Below are positions 2,548 through 59,090 of a stretch of DNA of 64,000 bases, piece by piece. Source of the DNA: Nicotiana tabacum (taxonomy: Eukaryota; Streptophyta; Magnoliopsida; Solanales; Solanaceae); contig NC_134085.1 of NCBI RefSeq assembly GCF_000715075.1, forward strand, positions 155,648,178-155,712,177. The letters are read 5' to 3'. The translations under genes were made by a program, and so were the position numbers. The notes beneath the pieces were generated by a model. That model saw only the letters and a list, made by a program, of their open reading frames with translations. It did not search any database and was not told the DNA's origin. Each line of letters opens with the position of its first letter. The first letter of the stretch is position 1.

Positions 2548-2582
2548 CTACGTTCGACCTGATTCCTTTTAAGGATACGTAG
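2548..2582 (+). other. Two-stem hairpin motif, copy A
   Basis: The outer stem CTACGT (2548-2553) pairs with ACGTAG (2577-2582). The inner stem TCCT (2564-2567) pairs with AGGA (2572-2575). The single-stranded part GACCTGAT and the trailing GGCAGCCT are conserved in the other copies. This is one of seven copies; see the finding on the hairpin family. Confidence 0.65.
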
Positions 2583-2868
2583 GCAGCCTCACGGTTCGGT
2601 CTCATCGAAACAAAAATCCAAAAGTCCCCAAGCAAGAAACTGGGGTAAAAATCGTGGTTGTTGTGGGAAACCTGATTCTGAAAGTTGTACTTCTAACCCA
2701 TTTGAATTATTTTGAGCCTTTTAACCCTTTCTTCCTAGCCCTGTCCAAAAGACCACATTACGGTCCAAAGAAAGACCTTCTGATCAGTCTTTGAGAAATG
2801 CCAAGTTAAGCAAGTAAAAGGTAATTCATGTCGGGGGCAACACTCTGGTTCAAGCAAGGAGGGAAATA

Positions 2869-3120
2869 AAGTGAGAGAGTCTTATTGGTGAAAACCCTCA
2901 CGGGCACCGTAAGGCGATGGGAGTTGAGAGAAATTAAAATGAGAGAGTCTTATTGGTGAAAACCTTCACGGGCACCGTAAGGCGATGGGAGTTGAGAGAA
3001 ATTAAAATGAGAGAGTCTTATTGGTGAAAACCCTCATGGGCACCGTAAGGCGAAAGTGAGTTGAGAGATGAAAGAATGAAAGAGGTCTGCTGGTGAAAAC
3101 CTTTCAAGGCGCCGCAGGAT
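2869..3120 (+). repeat. Tandem repeat, about 68-bp unit, three full copies plus a degenerate fourth
   Basis: GAGAGAGTCTTATTGGTG recurs at about 2872, 2941 and 3009, with a diverged unit from 3076. Each unit carries the block CACGGGCACCGTAAGGCGA. Related single units occur near 56100-56160 in the second Tat-type element, so the repeat belongs to the family's 3' untranslated region. Confidence 0.8.
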
Positions 3121-4310
3121 GAACAAGGTCAAGGTTTAGGTAAAGTAATCAGGTCATGGAAATTCTGGGGCAACGAAGTACGGTAACTGAAAGTTGATTG
3201 GCTGGACAGATAGGGCATATTAATCCGAAATACATGTCATGATCATTGGTACTAGCTGTTCCACTCAGATAAGTTTCTTTTTCTTTTTCCTTTTGTAGGA
3301 GTCACCTGGTTTTAGATTCTTCTTATCCTTAACTCACAAAGTCATTGCATTTCATTTTCTTTTGGGTATTTATCTAAAGATGTTTCAATGCCAGTCTTGT
3401 TCAAATCAAGTGAAAAGGATTTCAAAGCTCACTACCAACTTCCAAAATTGCAAAGCACGGAGTGGTCAAAGCATACTAAGGATAACATGATGTAAGAGAG
3501 GGGTACAAGGAATCACCGAAAGTTTTATCGGTGGAATGAATTGGTAATGTCATGGGAGATGCAAATGTTCAGATAAAAAGGTCAGAGGTAAAACAACATC
3601 ATGGGTATAGAACACTCGGTTCGTCAAAGGTCATGGGGTGTGAAAGTCAGTCAGAAAGTCAAAGCGGTTCAGGGCCAGTTCGGGAAGCCAGTCAGAACAA
3701 AACAATGCAGCGGAAAGATCTTCAGCAAGAATGCCATCAACTAACCACCATTTTTAAACTGAATTTTTTTCCTTTCAAAACAGGTTTGATTTTTGATTTT
3801 CAGGATCTTCCTGGAAAATGGGACCTAGTTTAAAGTTTAGAAATAGCATGATCTAGAATAAATGTATCCTAAAAGAATATAAGTTGGTGTAGAAGTTTGC
3901 ATGCTCGAGATAGGATTCAATTATGAGTTGCCAAGACCCTCTTGAATAACAGGACTTAGTTTAAGATTTCAATTAGATAACAACATTTAGCGTAAGTTCT
4001 GCTGTAGGGTAGTATAATTCAGCCATGAAAGTTGTCACCCTTAAGATAAAATTTGACCTTTGATTTTCAGGACCCTCCTGGATAATGGGGAGTAGTTTAA
4101 AGATCCTCTTAGATAGCAAGATTTAGCAGAAGTCATACCTGTAGAAGATATAACTTAGATCTAAAATTGTCGTTTAGTTAAGAGTTGTCAGGACCCCCTT
4201 GAATAGTGGGACCTAGCTTTCAAATTCTTAGTGATACTTGGTAATATGATTTAGTTTTACACTCACATCTGTGCCCAGCCACCAAACCGGGGCAGAAAAT
4301 TTTCTTTGTT
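3121..4310 (+). other. Non-coding 3' region of the element
   Basis: I see no gene here. The short open frame at 3552-3833 has no recognisable similarity. Several loosely repeated phrases (AGGATCTTCCTGG, AGGACCCTCCTGG, AGGACCCCCTTG near 3803, 4068 and 4189) look like degenerate precursors of the 4.3-4.9 kb repeat array. Confidence 0.5.
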
Positions 4311-4319
4311 TTGTCTATC

Positions 4320-4935
4320 TTCAAGTCAGGATCCCGCCTGGAGAGCAGGGAATACATTTCAAGTCAGCAGTCAGGAGCCCGCCTGGAGAACAAGGGAGTA
4401 CCATTTAAGTTTAGCTTTCAAATTCTTTGTTTCATCTAAGTTGAAATCAGGAGCCTGCCTGGAGAGCAGGGAATACTTCCAAATGTAGCAGTCAGGAGCC
4501 CGCCTGGAGAGCAGAGAATACTTTCAAATGCAGCAGTCAGGAGCCCGCCCAGAGAACAAGGGAGTACCATTTAAGTTTTGGATTTCAAATTCTTTGCTTT
4601 GTTTATTTTGAAGTCAGGAGCCCGCCTGAAGAGCAGGGAATACGTTTCAAGTCAGCAGTCAGGAGCCCGCCTGGAGAGCAGGGAATACTTTCAAATGCAG
4701 CAGTCAGGAGCCCGCCTGGAGAACAAGGGAGTACCATTTAAGTTTTAGCTTTCAAATTCTTTGCTTTGTTTATTTTGAAGTCAGAAGCTCGCCTGAAGAG
4801 CAGGGAATACGTTTCAAGTCAGCAGTCAGGAGCCCGCCTGGATAGCATGGGAATACATTCACGTTTTGCAGTCAGGAGCCTGCCTGGATAGCATAGGAAT
4901 ACATATCAAGTTCAGCAGTCAGTCACCCACCTGAA
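4320..4935 (+). repeat. Minisatellite array with GTCAGGAGCCCGCCTGG core
   Basis: About a dozen copies of a 40-45 bp unit with core GTCAGGAGCCCGCCTGGAG followed by AGCAGGGAATAC. They are organised in higher-order blocks separated by a spacer containing TTCAAATTCTTTG near 4400, 4590 and 4755. The array sits in the 3' untranslated region of the Tat-type element. The equivalent place in the second element holds a different array (50-bp unit, 57888-58540). Confidence 0.85.
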
Positions 4936-5197
4936 AAAGGGGAAAACATCTCAGTTTACAATCCAAGGTGGCAACAAATGGATGCTTCCGAGAGAACGGA
5001 GGACAACAAGGCAACAAGAAACACAAGAGCAAGTTTGAAGATATAGATAGGACTTTTGTAATCCATAGATCATAGTCTAGTCTAGCTTTTTGTTTTATTT
5101 TGACATGGTGTAATAAGGGGGTTCAACAAGCAGCGGCAGCAGCAGCAACAGTGAAATCACAGCTCCATGGTAGTCCCAGCTACCAGACATTCCTAAA

Positions 5198-5236
5198 CTA
5201 CATTGACCTGATTCCTTTTTAGCCAAGGATATGTAG
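5198..5236 (+). other. Two-stem hairpin motif, copy B
   Basis: The outer stem CTACAT (5198-5203) pairs with ATGTAG (5231-5236). The inner stem TCCTT (5213-5217) pairs with AAGGA (5225-5229). Relative to copy A, both sides of one outer pair have changed (G:C to A:T), which keeps the stem. Confidence 0.65.
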
Positions 5237-5360
5237 GCAACCTCGGAAGAAGGGTACGATTAAATCTTTCAAAGATGCTTCCCACGGAGTATTCAGACGG
5301 GCAAAAATCACTCGTATCCGCTCACTTTATCTTTGCACGAAAACTCTCCATGTTTTCGCG

Positions 5361-10549: not shown

Positions 10550-12006
10550 AATATTGATGTAATTATTAATTTATAAGTTAATTAATTATCACTGGTACAC
10601 TTATACGTAATATAACTATCAATTTACAGTCTAATCGAACTTAACATTACTTAAGAATACTACTAATGCACTTATACTTAGTGTAATGTCAATCTATAAG
10701 CTAATTACAACTAATACATTTACTAACTACGAATAATACACTTCTACTTAGTGTAGTATCAATGTATAGGCTAATCAATTATTAATATTAGTTAAACATA
10801 TCACTACTACACTTCTACTTACTGTTATCAACTTATAAGATAAACAATCACTAATATTTCTAGTCGATACCATTAATACACTTATATTAACGTGTAATTA
10901 TTGAAGAATAGGCTAATCAATAACCAACATTATTTAAGAATACCACAAATCTACTTCTACTTAGAGTAATTATCAATTCACAAGGTAATTACCAGTTTAT
11001 ATTATTATTTAGTATAATTATTACAAATACAGTTCACTTAGTGTAATTATCAATAGTTATTATAATCTGCAAAATAATCTTAAGGATATTTCTATGAAAT
11101 AGCATTTAGGTAGTGTGATTATCAATTTAGAATAGATCATCTGACAATTCATTTATACTTAGTGCAATTATCAATTTATAAGCTAATTGTCACTAATACA
11201 CTTCTACTTTATATAATTATCAATTTATAAGCTAATCAATCGCTAACATTTCTTACTAATATTATTAATACACTTCTATTTAGTGTAATTCTCAATGCAT
11301 AAGCTAATCAATTAGTGATAGTTCTTAAGACTATACTAATACACTTCTACTTAATTAGTATAATTATCAATGTATAGGCTAATAAATCACTAGAATTACT
11401 TCAGGATACCACTAATATTACTTAACGATACCACTAATAAACCTCTACTTACTTTAATTATCAAACTAAAGATAAACAATCACAAACATTTCTCACAAAT
11501 AGCATTAATGCACTTTCATTTAGTGTATAATTATCAACGTATATTCAGCACCTAACTTCATAAACTTCAACTAGGGAATATCGACTACCGTACATACCAA
11601 GCGGGATAAACTTCGGTTAAGTTTTGAGCAACATATTACTTACATATATATTATTAATATACTTATACTTCGTGTAATTATCAATCTACAAGCTAAATAC
11701 AACTAATACACTTTTGCTTAGTATATTATCAATGTGTATGATAATCAATTATTAACGTTACTTAAGGACACCATTAATACACTTCTACTTACAGTAATTA
11801 TTAATTTATAAGATAAACCATCACTAATATTTCTTACGGAAACGACTAATACACTTCTTCTTAGTGTGTAATTATTAATGTATAGGTTAATCAATGTAGT
11901 TAAGGATACTACAAATTCACTTTTACTTTGTGTAATTATAAATTACTAAGCTAATTACAACTAATATATTTTAAGTAGTGTATTGCCTCCACTTAGTGTA
12001 AATTTT
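10550..12006. repeat. AT-rich degenerate minisatellite, about 70-bp period
   Basis: Phrases such as CACTTCTACTTAGTGTAAT and TATCAATTTATAAGCTAAT recur about every 70 bases (for example near 10671, 10740, 10811, 10949, 11200, 11272, 11342 and 11660). The array is cut at 12007 by the Tekay-like element and resumes briefly at 22209 before a CACTA-type end. I therefore read it as internal sequence of that transposon. Confidence 0.7.
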
Positions 12007-14886
12007 TGTCACGACCCTAACCCCGAACCCGGTCGTGATGGCGCCTCTCGTGAAGACAAGGCCAGCCAGTTCAACCCAAATCAACTTTTAAAGCAGTTAA
12101 TCAACATAAAAATAGTCTAAACATGATTTAAACAATACTAAATAGTGGAAATATCGATAACAATGTGGAAAGTCCAACCCGACACAGCCCTAACCGGGGT
12201 GTCACAAGTCACGAGCATCTCTAAACCATAATACTAGTCTGCTAAAGTCATAAACTACTACAAGTGTTTGAAAGGAAACAGAAATGATAGAGAAGTAGAG
12301 ACACGGGGCTGCGGAAGTCAACAACTACCTCGTAGTCTCCGAAAAACCGCCTGGAACTGAAGGAATTAGCACTCAGGAGCGGTACCAGCTACGCCTGAAT
12401 CTGCACACAGGGTGCAGAGAGTAAAGTGAGTACTCCAACTCAGTGAGTAATAAAGATAAATGATGAATGGAAGTAAGAAAATATGCATACACAGGGTATT
12501 CTATAATGAAGCAATTAAATAGGTAATTTGCAAGTAGTAAACCAATGAAAAGAAAAATAAAGTACTGCTACAACAAATAAACAGGTAATTGACAGACAGT
12601 TATGATAAAGTAAACACATAGAAGTTCGCCCCTCGGGCACAACATCAACAATTTCCGCCCCTCGGGCTCAATCTCACATCACAATGGGTACCCGCGCTCA
12701 CTGGGGTGTGCAGACTCCGGGAGGAGCCCCTTACGGCCTATGCGCAATATCAAGCCATTTTGTGGCATCAAATCTAGGCTCTCGGCCGCATATCAATCAA
12801 GCCACCTCGTGGAATATTTATGTATCACAGGACCTCAGCCTTATATCAGTATCAATGTATCCTCACAACTAGGCCCTCGGTCTTACTCAGCCCAAAAATC
12901 ATCACAAGTCCCTCGGGCAATAGTAAAACAGTATTTTCCAGCCCAAAATATCATTTCAAAATATCATTTAAGTCTCAAAACCGAGTAAAGATGGCTGAGT
13001 AGTAAAACAGTGAAAAATAACATGACTGAGTTCAAGTAACAAGTCAAAACAGTGAGGAAATAGTAATAAAAATCTCCGAAGGGTTCAAATAGTTGGCACA
13101 AAGCCCAAATATGGCAATCAACCCAAATCATGATGATAACAAATAAATTTCAGTCAAATACGCGTTAAAATCATCAACCGGGACGTACCAAGTCACGATA
13201 CCTAATAGTGCACGACCCCACGCTCGTCATCAAGCGTGTGACTCACCTCAATATAGCACTACGATGTGCGATCTGAGGTTTCAAACCCTTAGAGCATCAT
13301 TTACAATCATTACTCACCTCGAACCGGCTAAATCTCTAACTCGCGATGCCTTTGCCCCTCGAATCGGCCTCCACGTGTGTCGAATCTATCCAAAATCAGA
13401 ATGAATATGTCACAATATGCTAAGGGAACAAATCCCAAGAGAAAACAATCGAATTACCACAAAATTCCAGAAATTGGTCAAACCCGACCCCCGAGCCCAC
13501 ATCTCGTAATTTGACAAAATTCACAAAACTAGAATCCTTATACTCTCCCGAGTCTAACCATATGAAAATTATCCAATTCTGATACCATTTGGTCCTTCAA
13601 ATCATCATTTTACATTTTTGAAAGATTTCACAATTTTCTTCCCAAATTCCATCCCAAATCACGAATTAAATGAGGAATTCAACGATTGATTCATGTACTC
13701 TAGCCAAATCTGAGTTAGAATTACTTACCCCGATGAATTTATTGAAAAACCTTCGAAAAATCGCTAAAATACGAGTTTTCTAGGTCAAAAATATCAAATA
13801 AAACCAAAAACCTCATATTTATAGAGTACCCCACAGATTTTCACCTCCGCAGACCGTACAACATCGACCGCGGTCCGCACAATAACGACCGCGGCCGCAC
13901 ATGCTTTCCTTTGCAGTGACAGATTTTAGTATTTTGGACATAACTTTCGGTACAGATGTTCAAATTGCTATATCTTTACCTTTCTGTAAACTAGACACGA
14001 AGGGCTAAAACTTTTGTTTTTAAATCATCTCAAACTTCCTTGTCGATCAAAAGATATGAGCTTCCGAAGTAGGACCAGTGAAATGTTCCCCACTGCGACC
14101 GCACAACAGCTACCGCAGCCGCACTTCATTTTGTGTGGTCCGCACAGCACATACCGCGGCCGCACTTCTTTTTATGCGGACCGCGTGGGTGGGTTACGAG
14201 GCCTGCAACCCTTCTGGATCTGCTACAACTATGATTTTTGGCCAAAAACATCCCGGAACCTTCCCGGAACTCCCGGAACTTCAAACCAATTGTACCAACA
14301 CATCCCATGACATCGTTCAAACTTGTTCAAAACTTTGGAATGCTCACAACAATATCAATCACCAATTTAACATAGGATTCAAGCCTAAGAACTCCAAGAA
14401 CTCTTAAATTATGCATTCAATCAAAAAGTCTATCAAATCTCGTCCGAATGGCCTAAAATTTTGCACACACATCCCAAATGACACAACGAAGCTACTGTCA
14501 CTCTCGGAATTCCATTCCGACCCCTATATCAAAATCTCTCCTATCAACCGGAACCGCCAAAATATCAACTTCGCCAATTTAAGCCTAAATCTTCTCTACA
14601 ACTCCAAAACCCATTCTGATCGCGCTCCTAAGTCACAAATACCTCCCGAAGTTAACCGAACCATCAGAACTCACTTCTGAGCCTTCTAACACATAAGTCA
14701 ACATCCGGTTAACTTTTCCAACTTAAGCTTTCTTAAAAGAGACTAAGTGTCTCAAACTTCACCAAACTCATTCCGGACTCGATCCACCCAACCCGATACC
14801 ACAAAAATACGGATAACGAAGCATAAAGAAGCTAAAATGGGGGAAATGGAGCAGTAACTCATGAGACGACTGGCCGGGTCGTCACA
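12007..14886 (-). repeat. 3' LTR of Tekay-like element
   Basis: On the + strand it begins TGTCACGACCC and ends GGGTCGTCACA, giving TG...CA termini. By eye it is closely similar to the copy at 19305-22208 along its whole length. It includes a cluster of CCGCGG/GCGGCCGC sites at about 13845-13900 and 14098-14185. All open frames in it are incidental. Confidence 0.92.
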
Positions 14887-14902
14887 TTCTTCCCAACTTA
14901 AA
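14887..14902 (-). promoter_or_regulatory. Polypurine tract of Tekay-like element
   Basis: On the minus strand the purine-rich AAGTTGGGAAGAAT abuts the inner edge of the 3' LTR, the position where plus-strand synthesis is primed. Confidence 0.6.
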
Positions 14903-15767
14903 AAAACGTTCGTCCTCGAACGAGTCAAGAAGCATACCTGAAGCCTCGAATAGGTGAGGATACCTGTTCCGAATCTCCTGCTCAGTCTCCCATGTAGCCT
15001 CCTCCACGAGCCGACCTCTCTACTACACTTTTACTGAAGCTATATCCTTTGACCTCAACTTCCGAACCTGACGACCCAAAATAGCTAACGACTCCAAATC
15101 ATAGGTCAAATCATCATCTAACTGAATCGTGCTGAAGTCCAAAACATGAGACAGATCCCCGATATACTTCTGGAGCATAGTATGAAATACCGGATGCACA
15201 CTCGATAAGCTGGGTGGCAAAGTAAGCTCATAAGCCACCTCCCCAATCCTCTAAAGCATCTCAAAAGGCCTAATAAACTGAGGACTCAATTTCCCTTTCT
15301 TCACAAATCTCATAACACCCTTCATGGGTGAAACCTTCAACAGAACCTTCTCGCCAACCATGTAGGACACATCTCGAACCTTCCTATCAGCATAACTCTT
15401 TTGCCTCGATTGCGCTGTACGATGCCTCTCCTGAATTACCTTCACCTTCTCCAAAGCATCCTGCACCAAATTAGTCCCCAATAGCTTGACCTCACCGGGC
15501 TCGAACCAACCAACTGGAGATCTGCACTGCCTCCCATAACAAAGCCTCATATGGAGCCATCTGAATACTCGACTGGTAACTGTTGTTATAAGAAAACTCT
15601 ACGAGCGGTAGAAACTGATCCCATGACCCTCCAAAATCAATAACACAAGCACGCAACATCTCCTCCAATATCTGAATAGTATGCTCGGACTGCCTGTTCG
15701 TCTGAGGATGAAAAGTTGTGCTCAACTCAACTTGAGTACTCAACTCTCTCTGCACGGCTCTCCAAAA
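14900..15767 (-). pseudogene. pol: Integrase C-terminal remnant with chromodomain-like end
   Basis: Reading from 15767 on the minus strand, the frame starts inside the integrase catalytic core (FWRAVQREL, STTFHPQTN) with the Glu-containing SEHTIQILEEML helix. It continues through the C-terminal domain (FEPGEVKLLG, GEKVLLKVSPMKGVMRF) to a chromodomain-like tail (HPVFHTMLQKYIGD; VEEATWETEQ near 14960). The zinc finger and the first two catalytic Asp residues are absent because of a deletion at about 15768. In-frame stops occur at the TAG following FTS, near 15250 and near 15022. Confidence 0.85.
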
Positions 15768-16300
15768 CTACGATGTAAACTGATGGTACAATATAGTGAT
15801 ATCATAATCCTTAAGTAACTCCAACCATCTCCGTTGCCTCAAATTAAGATCCTTTTGCTTGAACAAATGCTGAAGACTGTGATGATCAGTGAACACCTCA
15901 AAAGATATGCCATATAGGTAATGCCTCCAAATCTTCATTGCGTGAACTATGGAAGCCAACTCCAAATCATGAACAGAGTAGTTCTTCTCATGGGGCTTCA
16001 ACTGACGAGAAGCATAAGCTATAACTCTTCCCTCAAGCATCAACACACAACCAATCCCAACTCTCGAAGAATCACAATACACGATATATGAACCTGAAGC
16101 TGATGGTAAAACCAACATTGGAGTTGTGATCAAAGCTATCTTGAGCTTCCAAAAGCTCTCCTCACACTTGTCCGACCATGCAAATGTAGCACCCTTCTGA
16201 GTCAACTTGGTCAAGGACGATGCGATAGATGAGAATCCCTGAACAAACCGACGATAATAGCCTGCCAAACCAAGAAAACTGTGAATCTCTGTGGCTGAGG
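15768..16300 (-). pseudogene. pol: RNase H domain, truncated at its C-terminal end
   Basis: The connection domain ([28 protein letters not shown]) is followed by Gypsy RNase H ([53 protein letters not shown]). The domain stops at ITILYHQ, where it is joined in frame to late integrase sequence. The usual ending of RNase H, the integrase zinc finger and the first half of the catalytic core are missing. The junction is an internal deletion followed by a TAG four codons later. Confidence 0.85.
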
Positions 16301-17209
16301 ATGGTCTGGGACAACTCTAAACCGCCTCTATCTTTTTCGGATCAACCTGAATACCCTCGCTGGACACCACGTGCCCCAAAAAAGCCACTAAACTGAGCCA
16401 AAACTCACACTTGGAGAATTTTGCATAAAGCTTCTCCTAACTCAATCTATACAATACAACTCTCAAATGCTCTGTGTGCTCCTCCTGACTACACGAATAC
16501 ACCAGAATATCATCAATGAAGACTATGACCAATGAATCAAGATACGGCCGGAACACGTTTTTTATCAAATGCATGAACACTGTTGGGGCATTGGTCAGCC
16601 CAAAAGACATCACCAAGAACTCATAATATGACCATATCGAGTCCTGAAAGTCGTCTTAAGAATATCCGAGTCCCTGATCTTCAACTGATGATAACCTGAA
16701 TGGAGATCAATCTTAGAGAACACCCTTGCTCCCTGAAGCTGGTCAAATAAATCATCAATGTGAGGCAAAGGATATTTGTTCTTAATTGTTGCCTTGTTCA
16801 ATTGCCTATAATCAATGCACATTCTCATTGTGCCATCCTTCTTCTTCACAAATAGAACCGGCACACCCCAAGGTGACACGCTAGGCCGAATGAACCCCTT
16901 ATCTAGGAGCTCCTGAAGTTGCTCCTTCAATTCATTCAACTCCGCTAGTGTCATACGATACGGAGGAATAGAAATGGGCAGAGTTCCCGGCACCAAGTCA
17001 ATACCAAAATCAATGTCCTTGTTTGGTGGCATGCCCAGTAGGTCTACAGGAAACACATCGGGAAAATCCCTCACAACTGGAAAAGAATCAATATTGGGAG
17101 TCTCAGCTCCAACATCCCTCACAAATGCTAGGTATGAAAGACAACCCTTCCCAACCATACGCTGGGCTCTCAAGAAAGAGATCACTCTACTAGGAACGTA
17201 ATCAGTCAC
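16301..17209 (-). pseudogene. pol: Reverse transcriptase domain
   Basis: Conserved RT blocks are visible on the minus strand: [50 protein letters not shown], and the catalytic FIDD (in VFIDDILV) near 16505-16530. The frame is lost near 16610, after TTFRTRYGH, where the expected sequence continues in another frame. The domain would copy element RNA into cDNA. Confidence 0.88.
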
Positions 17210-17215
17210 AGCTCG

Positions 17216-17770: not shown

Positions 17771-17771
17771 G

Positions 17772-19061: not shown

Positions 19062-19290
19062 TGGTGGTCTTCCACCTCATCCGGTATATCGTGTCCTCAC
19101 CATCTCTAAAAGAATAGAATAATGGAAGTTCTATATTCGGATCAACAAGTTCGCACGATAGGAATTTCAAGAATATGAAGTTTTTCCTAAAGGTTTTGCA
19201 GCCTCTCAAGGATAAATACAGATGTCTCCGTACCTATCTGCGAGACTCTACTAAACCGGCTCATGACTCGCGAGATCTTTGTAACCTAGG

Positions 19291-46712: not shown

Positions 46713-47210
46713 TGTAAACACGTGATTTTTGCCCTATGTGAGAATTACTCCCAAAAATTCAAAATAAAACAATTTTTCTTTGTGTGTAATTTTGAGAATT
46801 TTTGTGACATTTTTGGATAATTATTTGTATTTGTCTGTGCATGTTTATTTGTTAAATTGATAAAAAAATATATAAAATATGTCGCATTTGCATTTAATAT
46901 TTAATTCTACAGTTAGGAGTAGTTAAGTTTGTTTTACAAAATAAAAAAATCATAAAAATATGTATTTTTTTGCATTTTTAGCATTTAATGTCCAATTGTA
47001 CAATTTTATGCTTAAATTATGTATGATAGTTGTCTCTAGGAATTAATTAGTATTTTTGATAAGTTAATTTAGTTTATAACTTAATTTAGAATTTTAGTTT
47101 TATTAATTAGAAAATAGAAGAAAAATAGAGCAAAAAATATAAAGAAAATCGGAATTGGGCCTCTTCTTCAATTTCAAACCACAGGCCCAAAAAAATACCC
47201 AACCTTCCCC

Positions 47211-47804
47211 ATGACCCGGTCCATTTCAACACGGGTCGACCCGGTCCGCCCCATAACCCCAAATGACCTAACCCCTCCTAATCTTCATTTTTCATTTCCT
47301 AAACCTAAAACCAAACCCATCCGCCCCCCTCTCTCTTTCTCTCTTCACCCTCACCATGAACAACTCCTCCAAGCTCCCAACCATGACTGCCTCTTCTCCT
47401 TCACCATCACCAAAAATCCAAAACACACATCCATGGCTGCCTTCAAACCCACGACGTCGACCACTGCTGCTGCTTCATCTTCGTCGCCGAGCTCGAGCTC
47501 GAGCTCCCAAGGCTGCCTCCCTAGACGACCATGCACCCTAGCACCTCGCTTCTGCTTCTTCTGCTACGTCCAAACAGAACCCATGGCTGCTACTTCTTCA
47601 TCGTCTCCTTCAGTCAAACAACCCGTCGTCAACGACCAGCCACGAACGACCCTGCTGCCACTGCTTCATCTTCTTCGTCGTCAAGCTCAAGCTCGAGCTC
47701 CCATGGCTGCCTCCAGTGGCGATGACCAGCACCCCAGCTTCACCTACTGCTTCTTTTGCTTCGTCTTCAACAGACTAGCTGACCCCATTCTCGTCGAAAA
47801 CTAA
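47211..47804 (+). other. Low-complexity open frame in the 5' LTR, doubtful
   Basis: 197 codons rich in Ser, Pro, Ala and Thr with poly-Ser runs. The corresponding frame in the other LTR (59718-60596) is open for 292 codons because of a few changes. An internal approximate duplication (the GAGCTCGAGCTCCCA region appears near 47495 and 47690) explains the repetitive protein. No domain was recognised, and the 3' half of the longer copy overlaps the antisense BSK fragment. I do not regard it as an established protein. Confidence 0.3.
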
Positions 47805-47933
47805 CGAGCAACAACATCTCCAAGACTGCTGCTCCAGCTCCACCTTCGTCGACGTCCAGCTCCGCCAACAAATCTTCTGTTGCGTTGCTGCTGCCTTAGC
47901 CCCATCCAGCATCTGCTTTAGCTGTGTTGCTAC

Positions 47934-48338
47934 TGCCTCGTTTTCCCTCCCCAATGTGAAAAGAGAAGCAGCTTGCAAATAGGATGCGATATGCCAAACA
48001 AGAGATATTACATGTGCTTGTACTGCATCGTTGAGGGCTTCTTGTGGCATATCACTCATGAGATAAGAAAGACTCCGATGAGCGTACACAGTTGGTGAAA
48101 CCATGGTTCCAACATCAATAAACTTCGTATAGCATTCAATGGCAGCTCTAAAATCTTTGTTCTTGAAAGCAGCATCACCCTTTTTCTTTGAGTTCAATGT
48201 TTCCAGCACCTGATCTATCCACATCTGAAATGAAAGCTCAGTAGCTGCTCCCTCATCATCTTTTTACCCAAGAGTGTCTAAAATCTCATGGATGGCAGTC
48301 AAGTCAGTTTTCAAACAAGCTTCACCAAGTGGAGATAG
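47934..48338 (-). pseudogene. BSK: Captured brassinosteroid-signalling kinase TPR fragment, 5' LTR copy
   Basis: On the minus strand, [20 protein letters not shown] is followed after a stop by [20 protein letters not shown], then [37 protein letters not shown] and [20 protein letters not shown]. This is the C-terminal tetratricopeptide region of plant BSK receptor-like cytoplasmic kinases. The stretch is read without introns. A TAA replaces the Tyr codon of GYKDDEG in this copy. The kinase domain is absent. It lies antisense to the retroelement. Confidence 0.85.
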
Positions 48339-49130
48339 AGACATAGTTTCGCCATCACGTGACCTCACCATCTCGTTTGTTCGAGCTTTGGTCGGGGTTT
48401 GTCGAAACAGTTCATACACAGTCAAGGTCATCGAGTTGCAGTGCGTCGAGGTTGTCATTCGAACCCAATCCCTTTAATATGGTAGGATTCCGATCTATTT
48501 TGTGTTGTTGTTAGTTTTCGTTCATCTTCTGCTCAATTCTCGTTCTGGGTAAAATTAAATGTTTGGTTTATTTTGATGTTCTTCTTCTTTGTATCATTGC
48601 ATATTTCAAGTTAGGAAGTTCAATCAGTCTTGTATAAAACTGTGGCTATTCCCATAAGTGTTTATTATTGTATTGGTTCAAATGGTTTCGTTTTGTGAAT
48701 TGTTTGGTTTCCTGCTCTTTGTTGTTCATCATATGATTTCAGTTTGCATTTTGTTTCCGTTAATTGTGATTCATGTTGTTTCGGTTTACTTTTGTTGTCT
48801 CCTTGCTCGTTCATTTATGTCTAAGTTAACCAGGATTGGTTCCCAATATGGTTAACTTATTCCCATTAATTTGATGTTGTATGATTCAATCCGTGTTCAT
48901 GGGATTTGTTGTTTGAATTTGTTTAGAAATTGGTTATATCTGTTGTATTTTGTTGGAATTGATTAGGTGAATTGGTTATAGTTGATGGGGGTAGATTGGT
49001 AAATTGCAGTATGTTCAGGGGTAAAATGGTAATTTCAGTAAGGTCGGAGGGGTATTTTTGGAATTGAATATTTGAACAATTATTTAATCTGAGTGCTCTG
49101 TCCACTAGGCGTTAACAATATTAAAATAAT

Positions 49131-49375
49131 ACATTGTGGGAGACAAGACATAAGTTAGTGGGGAGGTGATATAATTGTTTAATATAGTGGGGGACAAGAC
49201 ATAACGTAGTGGGGAAATAATGTAATTATTTAAGTTAAGCATGAGAGACAAGATATAATGAAGTGGGGTTGATATATTTATTTAATGTAGTGGGGGACAA
49301 AACATGTAGGCATGGGGGACAAGGGAATTAAATAAGAAAAACATTAAGTAGTGGGAACAAAGCATGCAATTAAAA
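49131..49375 (+). repeat. Degenerate tandem repeat with GTGGGGGACAAG unit
   Basis: About five units carrying GTGGGGGACAAGACATA or close variants, spaced 45-65 bases, lie just upstream of the LTR TATA box. The same array is at about 61630-61860 in the 3' LTR. Confidence 0.75.
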
Positions 49376-49413
49376 GAATATTTCGGGTTAGTGGTTCAAG
49401 ACAAGGGTCTTGC

Positions 49414-49421
49414 TATAAATA
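49414..49421 (+). promoter_or_regulatory. Candidate LTR TATA box, 5' LTR
   Basis: TATAAATA precedes a purine-rich leader (GAGAGAAAAAAAGGAAGAGA). The matching box in the 3' LTR is at 61911. It probably marks the U3/R border. Confidence 0.6.
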
Positions 49422-50850
49422 AGAGTCATTTTGACATAGGGGGGGGGGATTTCTTTAGGAGAACATCTTAGGAAGACATTTTTACAAAGATAGTTTTTTG
49501 GAGAGGATTATTTTTGGAGAGAAAAAAAGGAAGAGACTTTAGAAGAAGAAATAAAAAAGAAAGTTAAGATTGTTGACTGAATTTTGAGAAATAAGAATTT
49601 GAGAGCAAAAGAGAAAAACAAGTTGAACTTTTACTTGAATAATTTCCGTTTGCCTTTCCTTGAGTGTTATTTAAAATTAGTAAACTACTGCATCTTGTAT
49701 TCGTCTCTCTTCTGCTTTGACTGCGATTGCATTCCGGTACTGCTGGTTTTTCAATCTGTTACTGGGTTATTCTACTGGTCGTTACTGGTTTTGCTGTGTT
49801 GTTGAACCTGTTGTTGCTGTGTATTTACACTACTGCTGCTTCTACTGATCTTCATCTTCTTTCCTTGCTTTCCAAATACTAGGTACACAAACTGATACAC
49901 TGGTTCATCTTGTAAGCTACTCGAAGCATGAATGACAAAATGAGAAAGATTTGAAGTTGTAGTTTAATATAGTCTTTTCTTTCTTTTACTGTCTGTATGT
50001 AGAACATTCTATGCGCTGCCCATGTAAACTCTTTAAACGACTCACTTTCGAAACTTAACTATAATAACTCGAAAGTATGTAAATAAAGTATGACCTTTTC
50101 TTCATTTATTTTAGAGAAAAATAAAAAAATAAAAAAATAAAAAAATGTAGTCATTCTAAGATTATCCTTTTAAAAAAAAATAATGAGACGAGTCTCGCCA
50201 AATAAAAATGCAAATTGCGGGGCCCTCAATAATTGGTCATAATAAATACTTAGAATTTGGGATGGACTGTTTAGTGAATTTCACTGCCTTCCCCAAAGAT
50301 AATAACGCGTTAGACTCTTTAGGCGCGATTTAATTAAATTACATTCTTAAATTCGGGTGCGCATTTATGTGACCCAAATCCAAATCTCAACGACGTCAGA
50401 ATGTATTAACAACCACGGGTGCATCGATTGTGACATGGTTCAAAATGCATTTTCATGACGTTGCAATTCCATAAAAAATAAATAATAATAATAACGGTTT
50501 AAACTTAATAAAAGCACACAAGTTATAACATGTATTAAAATCAGATATTTAGCCATTATAACAATTTAAGTGACCGTGCTAGAACCACGGGATTCGGGAG
50601 TGCCTAACACCTTCCCTCGGGTCAACAGAATTCCTTACTTAGAATTTCTGGTTCGCAGACTTCATTTGGAAAGTCGAAAATTTCCTCGATTTGGGATTCA
50701 AGATAAAACCGGTGACTTGGGATACCAAAAGTCAAACCTTTCCCAAGTGGCGACTCTGAAATAAACAAACAAATCCCGTTTCGATTGTCCTTTAATTGGA
50801 AAAACTCCTTTACCCCTCGCGTGGGTCGAAAAAAGGAGGTGTGACAGCTC

Positions 50851-50870
50851 TGGCGACTCTATTGGGGACT
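50851..50870 (+). other. Primer-binding site, tRNA-Arg type
   Basis: TGGCGACTCTATTGGGGACT starts four bases after the 5' LTR. Ogre and other Tat elements are known to use tRNA-Arg, whose 3' end this resembles. Confidence 0.75.
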
Positions 50871-51731
50871 TGGAAACCCAGAACCACTGGTTCAGGGTTA
50901 GAAATTCGAGCTTAGATAAATTGTTATATTTGGTTTTATCTGATTTTATTACATGTTTGGGCTCAATGTGCTAAATGATGCTTTTATCGCTTTGATATTA
51001 TCTGAACTGTATATAAACTGTGCCGAAAGCCTTCTCTTCTTACCTCCGGGGAAGAGCTCGCTGGTCGAGACTCCCTATTCTATTAGTGTCAATACCTGAA
51101 ATAAGAAAGAGATCGGACAAGTTACAAAGTCGGACGATCCCGCGGGTCCCCGGTACGTAGCTCCCTCCTCGACTCTAGTTGTCCGCTCGGGTGCACAGTC
51201 TAGAACAAATACCCAGGTTATGAACCTAGAATAACTCAGCTTCATGCCAGATCCCTAGTAGGAACGTTTGTTTGCATCACGTGCATTTGACTTTGGAGGC
51301 TCAACACAAGGGTTGGGTCTGTCTAGGACAGGTGTACCAAAAAATGAAAATGACCATCCTGATGCATCTTACTTGCTGCTACTTGTGCATTTGTTTGATT
51401 CGGACTTGTGTGTTGACCGACTTTTGAATATCAGGAATATTGTGAAATTGAGGAAAAGAAAAAAAAATAGCGGTTAGGGAGTTGAATGTTTATTTTTGGA
51501 AAAACCCAATGCCCAAATACTGTCAAAACTCGGCCGAAATTTTGAGAAAATGAAAAAAAAAATTATTAGTTTGTTTTACTAAAAGCAAAGGAAAAATAGA
51601 AAAAAAAGTTGTTGTTCTGTCTTGTTTTCAAAAATAGAAAAGGAAAATAGTTTGTCTTCCCATGAAAAATGAAAATGAAAAAGAGTCTTGTTTTTTTTTT
51701 TAAAAAAAATATACTTTGTTTTATTCCCGAA

Positions 51732-51770
51732 CTACGCGGGTCTGATTCTCACCGGATGTGAGATACGTAG
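51732..51770 (+). other. Two-stem hairpin motif, copy C
   Basis: The outer stem CTACG (51732-51736) pairs with CGTAG (51766-51770). The inner stem TCTCAC (51747-51752) pairs with GTGAGA (51758-51763) around loop CGGAT. The same flanks GAACTAC and GTAGGCA are present. Confidence 0.7.
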
Positions 51771-52209
51771 GCAAACCTCTTCGGTTCCGGCCCACCATAT
51801 TCCAAAAAATCCAAAAAATATTTTCCATTTCTCAGTCTTTTAGACCTCGATTAAAAAAATAATACAAAAATATTTCCTTTTAATCTCTCTCAAAATCCAA
51901 AATATTTGTTTAAAAATTCAAAAGAAAATTCAAAATTCAAAAATATTTTTTCTTTTTTGTTGTAGTATTTCTTTCAGAAATTCAGAGTAATAGTTCAAAA
52001 ATATTTTCTTTTTCTTTAGAAGATTTTTCGAACTTTCCAAAAAAAAAAAAGAAGTTAAAATCCAAAAAAAAAATATTTCTTTAGTCGTCGTTTCTTTTCA
52101 AAAAAAAAAACAAAAATCGAAATTCAAAAATATTTTCTCTCTTATTTGTAAGTATTTTTATTCGAAAAAAAAAGGAGTTAGATTATTTGCTTTATTTCTG
52201 AGTCTCGAA

Positions 52210-52248
52210 CTACGCGGGTTTGATTCTCACCGGATGTGAGATACGTAG
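52210..52248 (+). other. Two-stem hairpin motif, copy D
   Basis: The outer stem CTACG (52210-52214) pairs with CGTAG (52244-52248). The inner stem TCTCAC (52225-52230) pairs with GTGAGA (52236-52241). It is nearly identical to copy C, 478 bases upstream. Confidence 0.7.
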
Positions 52249-52431
52249 GCAACCCTCATCGGGTCCAACCTCCCCTTTTGCTAAAATAGCCAAAAACAAA
52301 TAAATAAATAAAAAACATGTCAAAATTTTAATTTTGTCGTAAATAAGTCGGGTGGGTCCAACCTCCCCTTTTGCAAAAAATAGCAAATATATATATATAT
52401 ATATGTCAAGTTTTAATTTCATGATAAAGAA

Positions 52432-53060
52432 GTCGGGTGACGCTATTTTGTCAGACATAGCCGAATGTTCCCGAAAGGGACGACGGAAGGCTGACTTTGC
52501 ATAAACAGCCACCTTTGGGTCATTTTTTAGATTTGTTCCAGTTGACCCACACAGCCTTAAAAATCTTCGTCCCCGAGGCGCTGAAAGGCCGTGTTTGCAA
52601 TATTGAGTTTTCTATTTTGAAAAACAAGAAAAGGTCATAAATATGTCGGTTGACGTTGTTTTGTCAAACAATAGCCGAATGTTCCCGAAAGGGACGCCGG
52701 AAGGCTGACTTTGCATAAACAGCCACTTTTGGGGTCATTTTTTAGATTTCGACCGATTGACCCTCACATCCTTAAACATTTACGTCCCCGAGGCGTTGAA
52801 AGGCCGTGTTTGCAATATCGGGTCTTCTATTTTTGAAAAACAATAAAAAGAGTCATAAATAATTCGGGTGATGCTGTTTTTGTCAAAAATAGCCGAATGT
52901 TCCCGAAAGGGACGCCGGAAGGCTGACTTTGTATAAACAGCCACCTTGGGTCATTTTTTAGGATTTTGGCCGGTTAGCTAACGCGGCCTTAAAATCTTTG
53001 TCCCGAGACGCTGAAAGGTTGTGTTTGCAACACTAGGTCTTTTATTTTATTTTTTATTTT
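52432..53060 (+). repeat. Tandem repeat, 214-218 bp unit, three copies
   Basis: ATAGCCGAATGTTCCCGAAA starts recur near 52458, 52672 and 52890. Each unit carries a short TCCC-GAAA-GGGA hairpin, a GACGCCGGAAGGCTGAC block and a second block GGCGCTGAAAGGCCGTG (or close variant). A more diverged fourth unit follows to about 53290. Confidence 0.85.
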
Positions 53061-53504
53061 TAAAAAAACAAAGAGTCAGCGGCCAAGTGAATACTGTTTG
53101 GATTTTTAGTCAAAATAAGTCGAGCCAGCTTCGGCAGTGTCTTAAACCGTTCTTGCCGAAATAGCCTTAGAGTATCTTTCAGTTGTCGAAAGGCTATTTT
53201 CGTAAAAGAACGGACAAGTTTGTAAAGTGTCATAAAATAATCCTCCCCGGCCTCAAAATTCATGTGAAATTTGGAAGGGGCCACATTTGCAAAAATAACT
53301 GTTTGGTTGCATTTGTCAAACGGAGAAAGGAAGCTGGCCATTTGTTTTTGGAGTTTCTAAACCTTTTAATTAGAATATATGGGTTGTTTGATCTTCGAGT
53401 TTGTAGGTCATCTTTAAACCTTTGAAACCCAGTTTGTTTTATTATGAAAATTGATAATTCCAAAAAAAAGGGTTTCATTGTTGTTAACTTTCATTTTGGC
53501 CGAA

Positions 53505-53543
53505 CTACGCAAGGTCTGATTCATGCGGGGTCATGATACGTAG
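53505..53543 (+). other. Two-stem hairpin motif, copy E
   Basis: The outer stem CTACG (53505-53509) pairs with CGTAG (53539-53543). The inner stem TCATG (53521-53525) pairs with CATGA (53532-53536). The inner stem sequence is unrelated to copies C and D, yet it pairs at the same place. Confidence 0.7.
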
Positions 53544-53790
53544 GCAATCTCCATAAGATTCGACCACCACTAAAAAAAGGAATAATAATAGAAAAAAAAA
53601 GAAAATAAAGGAAAGCGCGGGTGCATTGTATCTCTGACAGAACGGTTTAACTGCTTAGGTGCATTGCATCACTGATATATGATTATCTGTCAAATGCCCT
53701 AACACTAACGTGATGGCTTCACTTTGCTGTATTCATATATAGAAAAGTGGTTGGTTGTGGTAACTCCTCCCTGCAAAGCAAAAAAGGACA

Positions 53791-54726
53791 ATGACACAGA
53801 ACCTCAGAACCGAGTGGGTCGGTACCGATGACCGACAATAACTGGTCGAACGGAACAACGGGTTGGTAGAAGAAGTGAAAATGCTGAGACAACATGTGGC
53901 AGACATGTATCGGGCGTGGATGGCTCGGAAAGCACCACCCCCGCCACCACCTAGCTTAATGGAATATGTCCTTACCCAAGCACCAAATACCATAACGGAT
54001 GATCCCCCGTACTCTCCATCCCAACCTACCTATGATAGCTTTCCCAGCCACCCGAGTAGCTCCATCACTCGTCAACGCTACTTCTCTCCACGAGACTCCC
54101 AAAGACATGCTTCGCTTTCCCAATACCCAGCTCCACAAAATGCCTATCCACCCTCTCAAGCCTACCGAAAGCCATCTGGATCAGGTTTCCGGCCCAATCA
54201 AGCATGCAAGAATGAGAGGTTGCTGAAAAAAAGAAAGGCTTTCACCCCTATTGGAGGATCATATGCCGGTTTGTTCCAAAAGTTGAAGCAATTGGACATG
54301 TTGAAGCCGATTCATATAAACATGCCAAACCCTCTGTCAAAGAAGCTTGATTTTTCTAGAAGGTGCGCATATTGCTCAGATGCACCGGGGCATGACACAG
54401 AGAAGTGTTGGAGGCTGAAGGAAGCAATTCAGAAGCTTATTGATGCAGGTGACATTGTCGTGCAAAATCTGGATGCAACAGACACTAGCCAAAGTCCATC
54501 GCCTATTCGAAGTGAGATGCATAGGTCGAACATGATTTGTTTTGAAAAGGAGTATGAGAATTCTTCTGAGATCCTTGGAGGTCCGCGCATGGCAAAGTTT
54601 TCAGTGCTATCAGAGGTTGTTCTTAAGAACGAGCCCGCAAAGGGAACCCAAAAGCAATTTGTTAAGAACAGTGAGACGAAAGTTGGTGGAGATCCCAGTA
54701 AGGTTGATGCCGAATTCAGTGGCTAA
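53791..54726 (+). pseudogene. gag: Minimal Tat gag with CCHC-like zinc knuckle, one in-frame stop
   Basis: The ATG at 53791 opens a frame with a TAA at 53839-53841; after it the same frame runs open to 54726. A short coiled-coil-like start (VEEVKMLRQHVADMYRAW) is followed by a Pro-rich and Ser/Tyr/Gln-rich region, then FTPIGGSYAGLFQKLKQLDM and a zinc knuckle CAYCSDAPGHDTEKC (spacing C-X2-C-X5-H-X4-C). KEAIQKLIDAGDIVV follows, all characteristic of the C-terminal part of Tat gag. The usual Retrotrans_gag capsid domain between the coiled coil and the knuckle is missing. An internal start (53863) would avoid the stop. Confidence 0.8.
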
Positions 54727-55660: not shown

Positions 55661-55669
55661 AATTGGGAA

Positions 55670-55705
55670 CTACGTTTGACCTGATTCCTCAAAGAGGATA
55701 CGTAG
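55670..55705 (+). other. Two-stem hairpin motif, copy F
   Basis: The outer stem CTACGT (55670-55675) pairs with ACGTAG (55700-55705). The inner stem TCCTC (55686-55690) pairs with GAGGA (55694-55698). It lies at the same relative place as copy A of the first element, after the purine tract. Confidence 0.7.
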
Positions 55706-55709
55706 GCGC

Positions 55710-57887
55710 CTCACGGCTCTGTCATATTGTGCATAGCGTGCACAGTGTGCATAGTGTAACATAGTGTAACAAAAAAAAAAGAAACTGGGGCAAGGGTTGC
55801 GCTTGTTGTAAACAAATATGGTTCCGAAGGTTGTAATTTTGAACCCCAAATTGATTTGTTTTTTAGCCTTTAATATCCTTTCTTTCTAGCCCTATCCAAA
55901 ACCCACGTTACGGTCCAAAGAAAGACCTTTTGACCAGTTTTCGAAAGATGCCAAGTCATACAAATGGAAGTCGGGGATAGCACCCCGATTCCCAACAGAG
56001 AAAGGATCATGGATTGAAAATGAATTGATAGCCGGAAAGAATCCCCAGTAGAGAGAGTCATATCGGCAACACTCCGAATCCCCAACTGGAAAGTGACAAA
56101 TGAGAGAGTCTTATCGGTGAAAATCTTCACGGGCACCATAAGGCATTGAAAACTGAGAGAAAAACCAAAATAAGAGAAGCCTGATAGTGAAAACACTTCG
56201 GGCACTACAAGTCGAATAAGATTAAGAATCAGATGGGGAATCGCCCAAATGAAGATCTTGAAAGACGATTGACGGCAGAGGATAGGCCACATGTGCATGT
56301 CATGACCATTAGAGTCGGTATCTGCGTTTGATAGGTTTTATTTATAGTTTCTCTTGTTAAAGAGTCGTCTTTTTCCTTTGTCTTTTATTCGTTTCCCTTT
56401 TTTGTTTATCTTTCTCCTTTCATAGAAAAATTCCCCAATAGAGTCTGTTCGGTCAGAACAAGTGAGAAATGACTTCAAAATCTACCATCAGCTTTCTAAT
56501 TATGCAAGACCATGTCTGATTAGAACATCCAAATGGTCTAAGTCAGGAAGGAACAAGCACGAGGCTAGTGTCAAAGATATCCCCTAGCAAGAGGGAATTG
56601 ACAAAAGGATGGACGAGTGTCAAGAGGGATATCCTCGCCGAAATCAAAGGTTGTAGACCTCAAGGCCAAGGACCATGGATAAACAAAGAAAGAACAACGC
56701 GGAGAGCAATGGGCATGATTTGGGAAAACTCATATGAGACTAAAAGGTCGTGGAAATGCCAATTTTCGAGCTATGCCACAAAAGAAAAGGGATAAATGGA
56801 AAAACCATCCCCAGCAGAAAAAGTTGTTTCAGTGACACGAATAGGCAGAGAAAATGGTTAATCAACGAACATGCACAATCTTCAAGTTACATCAGTTGTC
56901 ATGAAAATGCGTGAGGTCAGACAAGGAGACCGGGAAAATGGTTAAGAGGTTTGGGAATAAGGAATCGTCAAGAAGGTCGGAAGGTATCAGCCCAAGCTTC
57001 AAGATGAACAGACAACGCATAAATGGAGAATGGTTTATGGCATCCCCAGCAGGTGTATCGCAACCAACCACCATATTTTAAACTGACCAAATTATCTTTG
57101 ATTTGAAGCAGGGACAGGGAATGCTACCGATGACGGAAAGATGCGCCACAAGAAAGATTGTCAAACTGGGGCAGAAAATTTTTGTTCATTTTGAAAATTT
57201 TCGAGAAGTCTAACATGAGTTTGGTGAAAATCGGTATCCCCAACGGTTTTCGGGAAAAGGCAAAACGAGTTTTAAGGGAGGTAGTCTTCGAAGGAGGAAG
57301 ATAACAAAACAAAGAAAAATACTAATAAAAAAAAAGAAAAAAGAGAAAGACCAGTTTTGCAAAAGGAAACAGTTTGCAGAGGAATGAAACATCCTACTTA
57401 AAGGAAGTAGTCTTGGAAGGAGTAAGATAACATATTTTGCTCAGCAGAATTATCCTCAGCAGTGTTCTCCCCAGCAGTGTTACTCAGCGGTTTGCAGTGT
57501 TATCCCCAGCAGATCATCGAGATGTAGAAGCATCCTCGACAGATTTTTGACCAAGTTCCAATAGGGTCAGACAACACAAAGTGGGGAAGGAAGAGAAGGA
57601 AATTCATCCCCAGCAGAAATATCATCCCCAGCAAGTAACGTTACCCCCAACCGGTTTTGGGAACGCAGAGCAAGGGAAAGGAAAAGGAAAAATCATCCCC
57701 CAGTAGGAGTGACACGATCACTCACCATGTTAAAACTCACAAAATTTTATTTGATTTCTACAGGAAAATAAAGGTTGATGATGGCAGAAAGACACGCCAC
57801 AAGGAAGGTCACCAAAACTAGGGCAGAAAAGTTTTGCCGTTGTCGGAAATTTTCTCGGAGGAACGAGGAAACAAATTCAAATAATTT
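55710..57887 (+). other. 3' untranslated region of the pol-less Tat element
   Basis: No gene. Related in places to 2590-4300 (GCCCTATCCAAAACC near 55890; GAGAGAGTCTTATCGGTGAA near 56104). Recurrent CCCCAGCAG phrases lie near 56810, 57040, 57470-57660 and 57695. Open frames on both strands are incidental. Confidence 0.6.
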
Positions 57888-58540
57888 TCATGTCTTAGAT
57901 AAATAGGCGCCCACCTGTATAACGAGAGGAATAATTTTCATGTCTTAGATAAATAGGCGCCCACCTGTATAACGAGAGGAATACTTTTCATGTCTTAGAT
58001 AAATAGGCGCCCACCTGTATAACGAGAGGAATACTTTTCATGTCTTAGATAAATAGGCTCTCACCTGTATAACGAGAGGAATACTTTTCATGTCTTAGAT
58101 AAATAGGAGCCCACCTGTATAATGAGAGGAATATTTTCATGTCTTAGATAAATAGGCGCCCACCTGTATAATGAGAGGAATATTTTCATGTCTTAGATAA
58201 ATAGGCGCCCACCTGTATAACGAGAGGAATACTTTTCATGTCTTAGATAAATAGGCGCCCACCTGTACAATGAGAGAAATATTTTCATGTCTTAAATAAA
58301 TAGGCGCCCACCTGTATAATGAGAGGAATATTTTTATGTCTTAGATAAATAGGCGCCCACCTGTATAATGAGAGGAATATTTTCATGTCTTAGATCAATA
58401 GGCGCCCACCTGCATAACGAGAGGAATATTTTCATGTCTTAGATAAATAGGCGCCCACCTGTATAACGAGAAGAATATTTTCATGTTTTTAGATAAATAG
58501 GCGCCCACCTGTATAACAAGCGGAATATTTTTCAGTCTTT
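57888..58540 (+). repeat. 50-bp minisatellite, 13 copies
   Basis: The unit contains TTCATGTCTTAGATAAATAG followed by GCGCCCACCTGTATAACGAG. Thirteen copies of the CCACCTGTAT core occur from about 57913 to 58510, with unit lengths of 49-51 bases and few changes. It lies in the 3' untranslated region before hairpin copy G. Copies abut directly with no unique spacers. Confidence 0.93.
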
Positions 58541-59051
58541 ACATTTTCAGGTCTTGAAACCAGCAACTCACCGGAAAGCAGAAGGTTGCAACAAGAGATC
58601 CCAGCTCAAATTCAAGCGCATGAGTCAAAAGAAAGAAAAGACGCATCTTGAAAGAAGCGACCTGTGAACATTGAATTATGCCCAGCATAACAAATCTGAT
58701 GAAGAAAGTCGTATCCCCAGAGGAACCACCGAAAAGCTTAATAAAGGAAGCCATATCCCCAGCGGACCGAACTATACAGTGAGAATTGGTATTCAGAGTT
58801 GCAAAGGGTCGGTGTCATCCCCATCAGTTCTCGGAAGAAAGAAGCACTGGGATAGACACAAGCCGACAAGAAAGCAAGGCATCAAGAACAAATGGAAGAT
58901 AGATGGGATCTTGTAATCCGTAGTCTAGCCTAGCTTCTTGATTTTTCTTTCAAGCACGGTGTAACAAGGAGATCGGTAAGTAGTAATAACAGCATGCAAC
59001 AACAGTAACATTGCAATCCCCTGGTAGTCCCACCTACCAAAACTTCCTGAA

Positions 59052-59090
59052 CTACATTAACCTGATTCCCTTCTAGCCAGGGATATGTAG
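59052..59090 (+). other. Two-stem hairpin motif, copy G
   Basis: The outer stem CTACAT (59052-59057) pairs with ATGTAG (59085-59090). The inner stem TCCCT (59067-59071) pairs with AGGGA (59079-59083). It is the positional counterpart of copy B, about 130-140 bases before the polypurine tract. Confidence 0.7.

Follow-up and report, generated by a model that had tools for sequence, protein, structure and literature searches.

The untranslated regions of two Ogre-type (Tat lineage) long terminal repeat (LTR) retrotransposons of Nicotiana tabacum, here called elements A and B, carry seven copies of a short motif within a 64,000-nucleotide stretch of contig NC_134085.1 (positions 155,648,178 to 155,712,177 of the forward strand; hereafter the window). 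The original prediction, made from the letters of the window, read these copies as a two-stem RNA hairpin under selection. The locus raises the question of what structure this RNA adopts and what use the elements, one of them without pol, make of it. The analysis indicates that each copy is a module of about 55-70 nt in the element RNA, which probably folds into four helices with a pseudoknot rather than into a two-stem hairpin, and that the modules stand at fixed stations: in the leader, before gag, after the integrase, and about 160 nt before the polypurine tract (PPT).

Architecture of the RNA module

The helices are named P1 to P4. P1 (CTACR/YGTAG) and P3 are the outer and the inner stem described before, and P4 is a hairpin following the GGCA stretch that was recognized when the seven copies were aligned with their flanks and that the two-stem description had overlooked. 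P2 consists of the 4 nt located 5' of TGATTC (GACC, AACC, GGTC or GGTT) and the 4 nt located 3' of P4; its 5' strand had been written GA[C/T] and is in fact a helix strand with a downstream partner. With the strands in the proposed order P1-P2-P3-P1'-P4-P2', P2 would cross P1 and form a pseudoknot. If P1 does not form, P2 would close a three-way junction.

All seven copies were found on the plus strand where they had been predicted. Element A has a copy at station d, after the integrase (2545-2601, P2 GACC/GGTC), and another at station e, before the PPT (5195-5261), in which one P2 pair is broken (GACC/GATT). Element B has copies at the leader stations a (51729-51792, P2 GGTC/GGCC) and b (52207-52270, P2 GGTT/AACC), at station c before gag (53502-53565, P2 GGTC/GACC), at station d (55667-55723, with one broken P2 pair, GACC/TGTC) and at station e (59049-59116, P2 AACC/GGTT). 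In this last copy the nearly invariant, putative P1 would pair CTACAT (59052-59057) with ATGTAG (59085-59090), while sequence and covariation place P2 at 59059-59062 (AACC) and 59113-59116 (GGTT), the P3 hairpin (TCCCT/AGGGA) at 59067-59083, and the P4 hairpin (AACCTTTG-AAG-CAAAGGTT) at 59093-59111.

Near-invariant nucleotides (GAA, TGAT or UGAU in the RNA, T or U, GG, and C) are found where the helices meet, and hairpin lengths and loops are variable; this combination is the pattern of a binding site or of a tertiary core. The UGAU between P2 and P3 is present in 80 of 80 genome copies chosen with a pattern that itself fixes these bases, and has two single exceptions among 36 copies collected with a covariance model. 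The C of J4/2, a segment of 1-2 nt, is kept in 34 of the same 36. The loop of P3 (L3) is variable and is GAAA or AAAA in one class of copies. The constancy first attributed to some of these letters was overstated: the copy at 52210 has T in place of the C of CTGAT, the GGCA stretch is mostly kept and reads GGCG at 55670 and GGAA at 59052, and the GAA said to begin every copy is AAA at 5198. A further class with a longer P3 hairpin, of the TCTCGTCTTTCGGGGCGAGA type, was observed outside the window in L158, L178, L200 and L222 (loci outside the window carry L numbers).

The proposed strand order, which includes the putative P1, is the same as that of the hepatitis delta virus (HDV)-like ribozymes, which occur in retroelements (excerpt of PMC4908430), and the near-invariant C in J4/2 would also suit a self-cleaving ribozyme of this topology that would divide the RNA into units by a cut 5' of P1. 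On the other hand, the constant UGAU separates P2 and P3, so that these two helices do not stack directly, and the catalytic core that L3 and J4/2 form together with P1.1 in HDV-like ribozymes has no counterpart here, L3 being variable, including a possible GAAA tetraloop, and J4/2 being only 1-2 nt long. In addition, the GAA located 5' of P1, and hence of the would-be cut, is conserved, and cleavage at four stations would destroy the genomic RNA. A comparison with Rfam 15 returned no match at gathering scores, to these or to hammerhead ribozymes, and at E values up to 10 only chance-level matches to other families. The hammerhead core includes a GAAA strand between the second and the third stem, and the module has none. 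Hammerhead ribozymes are known as the structured RNA of retrozymes, which are plant LTR-type non-autonomous elements (excerpt of PMC4918200). Membership in either ribozyme class was rejected on these core features, and a self-cleaving module seems highly improbable.

Covariation of the helices and conservation of the modules

A first alignment of 14 copies, the seven of the window and seven from elsewhere in the genome, was generated with MAFFT, leaving out L001, a degenerate copy (42.9 bits), and L002, which is no copy. The covariance model R1 was built from these 14 copies with P2 omitted from its structure. In the window R1 recovered exactly the seven copies (56-74 bits), which match by construction, and nothing else. 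In 200 kb around earlier pattern hits and beside the window it located 29 copies, 22 of which had not been used in building it; one match of 9.2 bits was dropped before these 29 and the seven of the window were analyzed as a set of 36. Loci L140-L146 gave no R1 match and were not carried further. The best score against 496 kb of unrelated viral contigs (41 of 120 stretches) was only 15 bits, and the model matched nothing in five 10-kb stretches taken arbitrarily from the tobacco genome.

At the scale of the genome the seven copies belong to a far larger family. The core pattern GAACTAC-N3..10-TGATTC-N8..30-TAGGCA, which specifies some of P1 and the opening bases of P3 and leaves both P2 and P4 free, is matched exactly at 61,737 places in the 3,996,098,646 bases, and the reversed pattern at 0. 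From the 100 matches listed, 80, all in the first 5.2 Mb of one chromosome, were selected so as to avoid most identical sequences; R1 matched all 80 (40-76 bits), and together with the 36 they make up an alignment of 116 copies with 112 distinct rows. A relative among viral contigs was considered and rejected: a strict pattern was found in 0 stretches of IMG/VR and a loose pattern in at least 120, which were treated as chance occurrences.

In the 14-copy alignment 92% of the cells are paired with the full structure, compared with 21-42% when the partners are slid, and two-sided changes occur at 4 of 4 P2 pairs. P2, although absent from the model, is paired in 86 of 88 cells of the 22 copies outside model building and in 96.5% of the cells over all 36. 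Among the 77 distinct rows of the 80 pattern-chosen copies, 94.2% of P2 and 93.5% of P4 cells are paired, and every one of the four pairs in either helix shows two-sided changes; the whole of P2 is formed in 66 of the 80 copies when G-U pairs are included and in 49 of 80 with Watson-Crick pairs only.

To allow for the relatedness of the copies, a tree-based null resembling that of R-scape was computed with our own script. On the 36 copies the numbers of compensatory branch events were 5.5 for P2 (0.3-0.5 expected), 6.6 for P3 (0.3 expected) and 3.5 for P4 (0.2-0.3 expected), values reached in 0 of 1500 simulations, while an unrestricted test of column pairs on the same copies gave none below an E value of 0.05. 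On the 112 distinct copies the whole structure had 21.2 compensatory events against 2.3 expected (maximum 7 in 500 simulations), P2 had 8.7 against 0.7 (maximum 5 in 500 simulations), and P3 had 9.5. The top five of the 4005 column pairs of this larger set all lie in the structure, in P4, P2, P3, P3 and P2, with E values over all pairs of 0.004, 0.014, 0.15, 0.57 and 1.2, respectively; when the test is restricted to the 20 proposed pairs, all five fall below 0.05. Paired changes maintain P2, P3 and P4 in the sense strand. A plain two-stem hairpin was rejected, P2 and P4 being supported as well as P3. The orientation follows from the G-U cells, which outnumber the A-C cells 33 to 10 when two weak pairs are excluded, as expected for RNA in the sense strand of the element; these counts and the compensatory changes led us to reject a DNA-level motif or an antisense RNA.

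The selection first proposed from compensation in two stems therefore holds for the inner stem, and extends to P2 and P4, while the covariation of the outer stem is weak. The two strands of P1 do change together at one pair (G-C or A-U); the other inner pairs hardly vary, and the sixth pair is U-A in 44 of the 112 distinct rows and non-standard in 68. It is because of this weak sixth pair that P1 alone goes the opposite way in the G-U and A-C counts (1 and 14 cells). On the 116-copy tree, 87.2% of P1 cells are paired, just over the null maximum of 86.9%, in an alignment in which 80 of the copies were selected with a pattern that already specifies most of this helix. Both P1 and the pseudoknot that depends on it are thus inferred from an invariant complementarity and one variable pair.

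Several results weigh against the fold as drawn. The P1 helix has 0 compensatory events on the 116-copy tree, and among 335 genome copies in which the third base of P1 is changed to G, the matching change was seen in 0 of 100 among the matches listed, a figure with no measured expectation. The 3.0 compensatory events of P4 on the 112 distinct copies are within the null (mean 0.7, maximum 5), although the top-ranked of the 4005 pairs lies in this helix. When the P2 strands of copies with unlike 5' strands are exchanged, 41% of the combinations (2125 of 5246) still pair in full, and 17 of 80 P2 5' strands also have a perfect partner in P4, 16 nt upstream of the proposed one. Folding free energies are unremarkable, with z-scores of -1.49 to 0.47 in the seven window copies, and a rough and optimistic energy of the knotted fold, calculated with no pseudoknot penalty, improves on the minimum without a knot in only 10 of 36 copies. 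P1 is present in the predicted minimum-energy fold of 3 of the 7 window copies.

It could be argued that no RNA selection is involved and that the copies resemble each other through recent duplication, gene conversion or a motif acting at the DNA level, since copies a and b share 88% identity across 77 nt and identity within a station is high. However, modules of the same station are 79-96% identical whereas identity in the flanks beside stations a, b, c and d is only 28-65%, and the differences between stations in paired positions go well beyond the tree-based null. Recent duplication alone was rejected on the module and flank identities, and an origin free of RNA selection is scarcely credible. 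The contrast is weak at stations e and e2, where the flanks are 57-88% identical, and downstream of d2 (80-82%, compared with 24-48% upstream), and this has to be set against the general picture, in which the modules are islands of conservation at most stations. That the module has been kept by matching mutations suggests that the elements need it, including the copies that lack enzymes of their own.

Host elements and the stations of the module

Element B, on the plus strand, consists, in this order, of a 5' LTR (46713-50846, with boundaries set from the repeat and its TG...CA ends), a primer binding site (PBS) recognized by pattern and sequence (50851-50869, TGGCGACTC...), copies a, b and c, a gag-like open frame (53842-54726), copies d and e, and a PPT (59210-59222, from its sequence) directly before the 3' LTR. 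No homology to reverse transcriptase (RT), additional RNase H (aRH) or integrase was found in its interior, which agrees with the earlier description of a pol-less element with three copies in the leader and two in the 3' region. The gag-like frame was recognized by homology and has no Pfam match; it contains CAYCSDAPGHDTEKC, which by eye is a zinc-knuckle-like motif. The leader of element B includes, between stations b and c (52424-53048), direct repeats of about 210 nt that are 84% alike.

Element A, also on the plus strand, starts in L147, directly 5' of the window, and continues into it. Its order is PBS, leader copy, a frame with a plant mobile domain (PF10536, E 5.7e-13, L147:2633-3499), copy c, gag pieces, RT and RNase H (RH), an aRH piece between RH and integrase (467-793, RVT_3, E 2e-12), an integrase frame (797-1939, rve and Integrase_H2C2), and copies d and e followed by the PPT, these last two copies being at the same positions as in element B. 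Between the gag pieces and the RT of element A, at L147:7667-8209, lies a frame that matches the G-patch domain weakly (E 1.1e-4, 22.5 bits for a cut-off of 22).

An excerpt of PMC6317226 gives the plant mobile domain frame as an Ogre feature, found in 57% of Ogre elements, and the aRH between RH and integrase as a feature of Ogre and Retand. Pieces homologous to the aRH of element A are found in the same order in L136, L134+135, L137 and L148, and the plant mobile domain has a homologue in L134+135. By the placement of the aRH and the plant mobile domain, the host elements are assigned from sequence to the Ogre clade of the Tat lineage, as the original prediction of untranslated regions in Tat-type elements had it. 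Ogre elements account for 135,653,424 bp, or 3.4%, of the tobacco genome (excerpt of PMC10817978).

Five loci (A, L136, L134+135, L137 and L148) have RT, aRH and integrase homology, and all five carry modules, as do all four interiors with homology to gag only (B, L130+131, L132+133, and one of 2.9 kb in L129). The plant mobile domain is absent at E 1e-4 from these four. The module had been thought to matter particularly for an element without pol; the pol-bearing relatives carry it at the same stations. The very short interior in L129, on the minus strand (about 2.9 kb from PBS to PPT), keeps three modules and a gag piece, and L129 contains an apparent chain of LTR-interior-LTR-interior. In L148, also on the minus strand, the integrase end and module d occur twice, at a distance of about 1.2 kb.

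The spacing of the stations is tight at both ends. A PPT was located for 10 of the 12 e copies, and in all 10 it follows station e at a distance of 158-166 nt. A PBS was located in five elements; the first leader copy follows it at 777-881 nt in four of these and at 1540 nt in the other. Six d copies lie 288-612 nt after the integrase homology. A hairpin GGTAG-6 nt-CTACC, the CTACC of which could compete with P1, was observed directly 5' of station e in 9 of the 12 e copies (59019-59048, 5165-5194, and the same place in L131, L134, L136, L137, L138, L139 and L148).

The tight spacing between station e and the PPT, and between the PBS and the first leader copy, would be expected if the 5' and 3' copies joined the RNA ends or positioned the RT complex near PBS and PPT during reverse transcription, in the manner of Ty1 and Ty3, where end interactions are required (excerpt of PMC4974528). 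But stations c and d are far from both ends, and no loop-loop complementarity between stations was found in a comparison made by eye only, so we consider a reverse-transcription signal distinctly unlikely. The leader copies could also be entry or re-initiation sites for translation of the extra frame and gag; in element A a leader copy precedes the plant mobile domain frame and copy c precedes gag. As no known frame lies behind stations d and e and the copies are hundreds of bases 5' of the frames, translation control appears less likely still.

Possible functions and related RNAs

Stations at both ends of the RNA that also flank the coding units, and that are retained in elements without pol, point to a signal that acts in cis and is recognized by a protein available in trans, and the presence of modules in both the gag-only and the pol-bearing loci fits such a signal. 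We propose, tentatively and with somewhat less than even confidence, that the module is a reiterated cis-acting docking site, most likely for packaging driven by Gag. The elements' own particle protein (Gag/nucleocapsid) would dock on it, several sites per RNA at both ends would mark the full-length RNA for packaging, and pol-less RNAs could be packaged and copied with enzymes supplied in trans. Against this proposal, each station keeps helix sequences of its own, a conservation that one docking site common to all stations does not account for, and in Ty1, the best-studied comparison, a packaging role of the 5' pseudoknot could not be demonstrated according to an excerpt of PMC4974528.

A bolder version would take the station-specific conserved helices into account. 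The module would be a new RNA family and a position-coded address system, in which a four-helix knotted module at four or more fixed stations is read by the element's own protein and is alone sufficient for the trans packaging and copying of pol-less RNAs; we regard this version as doubtful.

Nuclear export or RNA stability offers another explanation, in which the fold recruits a host export or stabilizing protein so that the long Ogre RNA leaves the nucleus, with the copies acting together as in the mouse elements IAP and MusD. The presence of several module copies per RNA is consistent with it, and structured transport elements, one with a pseudoknot, are described for mouse LTR elements in an excerpt of PMC12786077. 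This explanation leaves unaccounted for the single copy held about 160 nt before the PPT, and its partner protein is hypothetical, RNA export of plant LTR elements not having been studied directly according to the excerpt of the same 2025 review. We consider a role in export or stability unlikely, if a nearer rival of the Gag docking site than those discussed above.

Among the structured cis-acting RNAs of LTR retroelements, the module stands out by being repeated and tied to particular positions. The Ty1 5' pseudoknot and the end-to-end contacts of Ty1 and Ty3 likewise involve pseudoknots or long-range pairing in LTR retrotransposon RNA (excerpt of PMC4974528), but Ty1 has one structure per RNA near its 5' end, whereas the plant module is discrete and repeated at several stations. 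The MusD transport element (MTE), which has a pseudoknot, and the IAP RNA transport element (RTE) are also structured cis-acting RNAs of LTR elements (excerpt of PMC12786077). Unlike the plant module, MTE and RTE belong to mouse elements. The module is not known to share a sequence or a fold with either of them. The open-access literature, searched by motif letters and by concept, contained no description of this RNA among the matches listed.

The marks by which plant retrotransposon RNA is packaged or exported and the mobilization of elements without enzymes are open questions to which the module is relevant; the packaging sequences of even Ty1 and Ty3 were not precisely defined at the time of a 2016 review (excerpt of PMC4974528). 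An RNA that is compact, repeated and covarying, has a defined core and exists in many natural variants provides a short transcript and a ready compensatory set for probing, binding and cleavage tests, and the module can serve as a marker by which non-autonomous elements retaining the signal may be found.

The window also includes two other LTR elements (12006-22208 and 25393-37465), with LTR pairs 91% and 94% identical and RT or integrase frames on the minus strand, and a frame that we take to be of the copia type; the covariance-model search detected no modules in any of them. Both Ogre-type elements contain tandem arrays between stations d and e, with units of about 49-50 nt in element B (57880-58588) and of 167 nt in element A (4302-4922).

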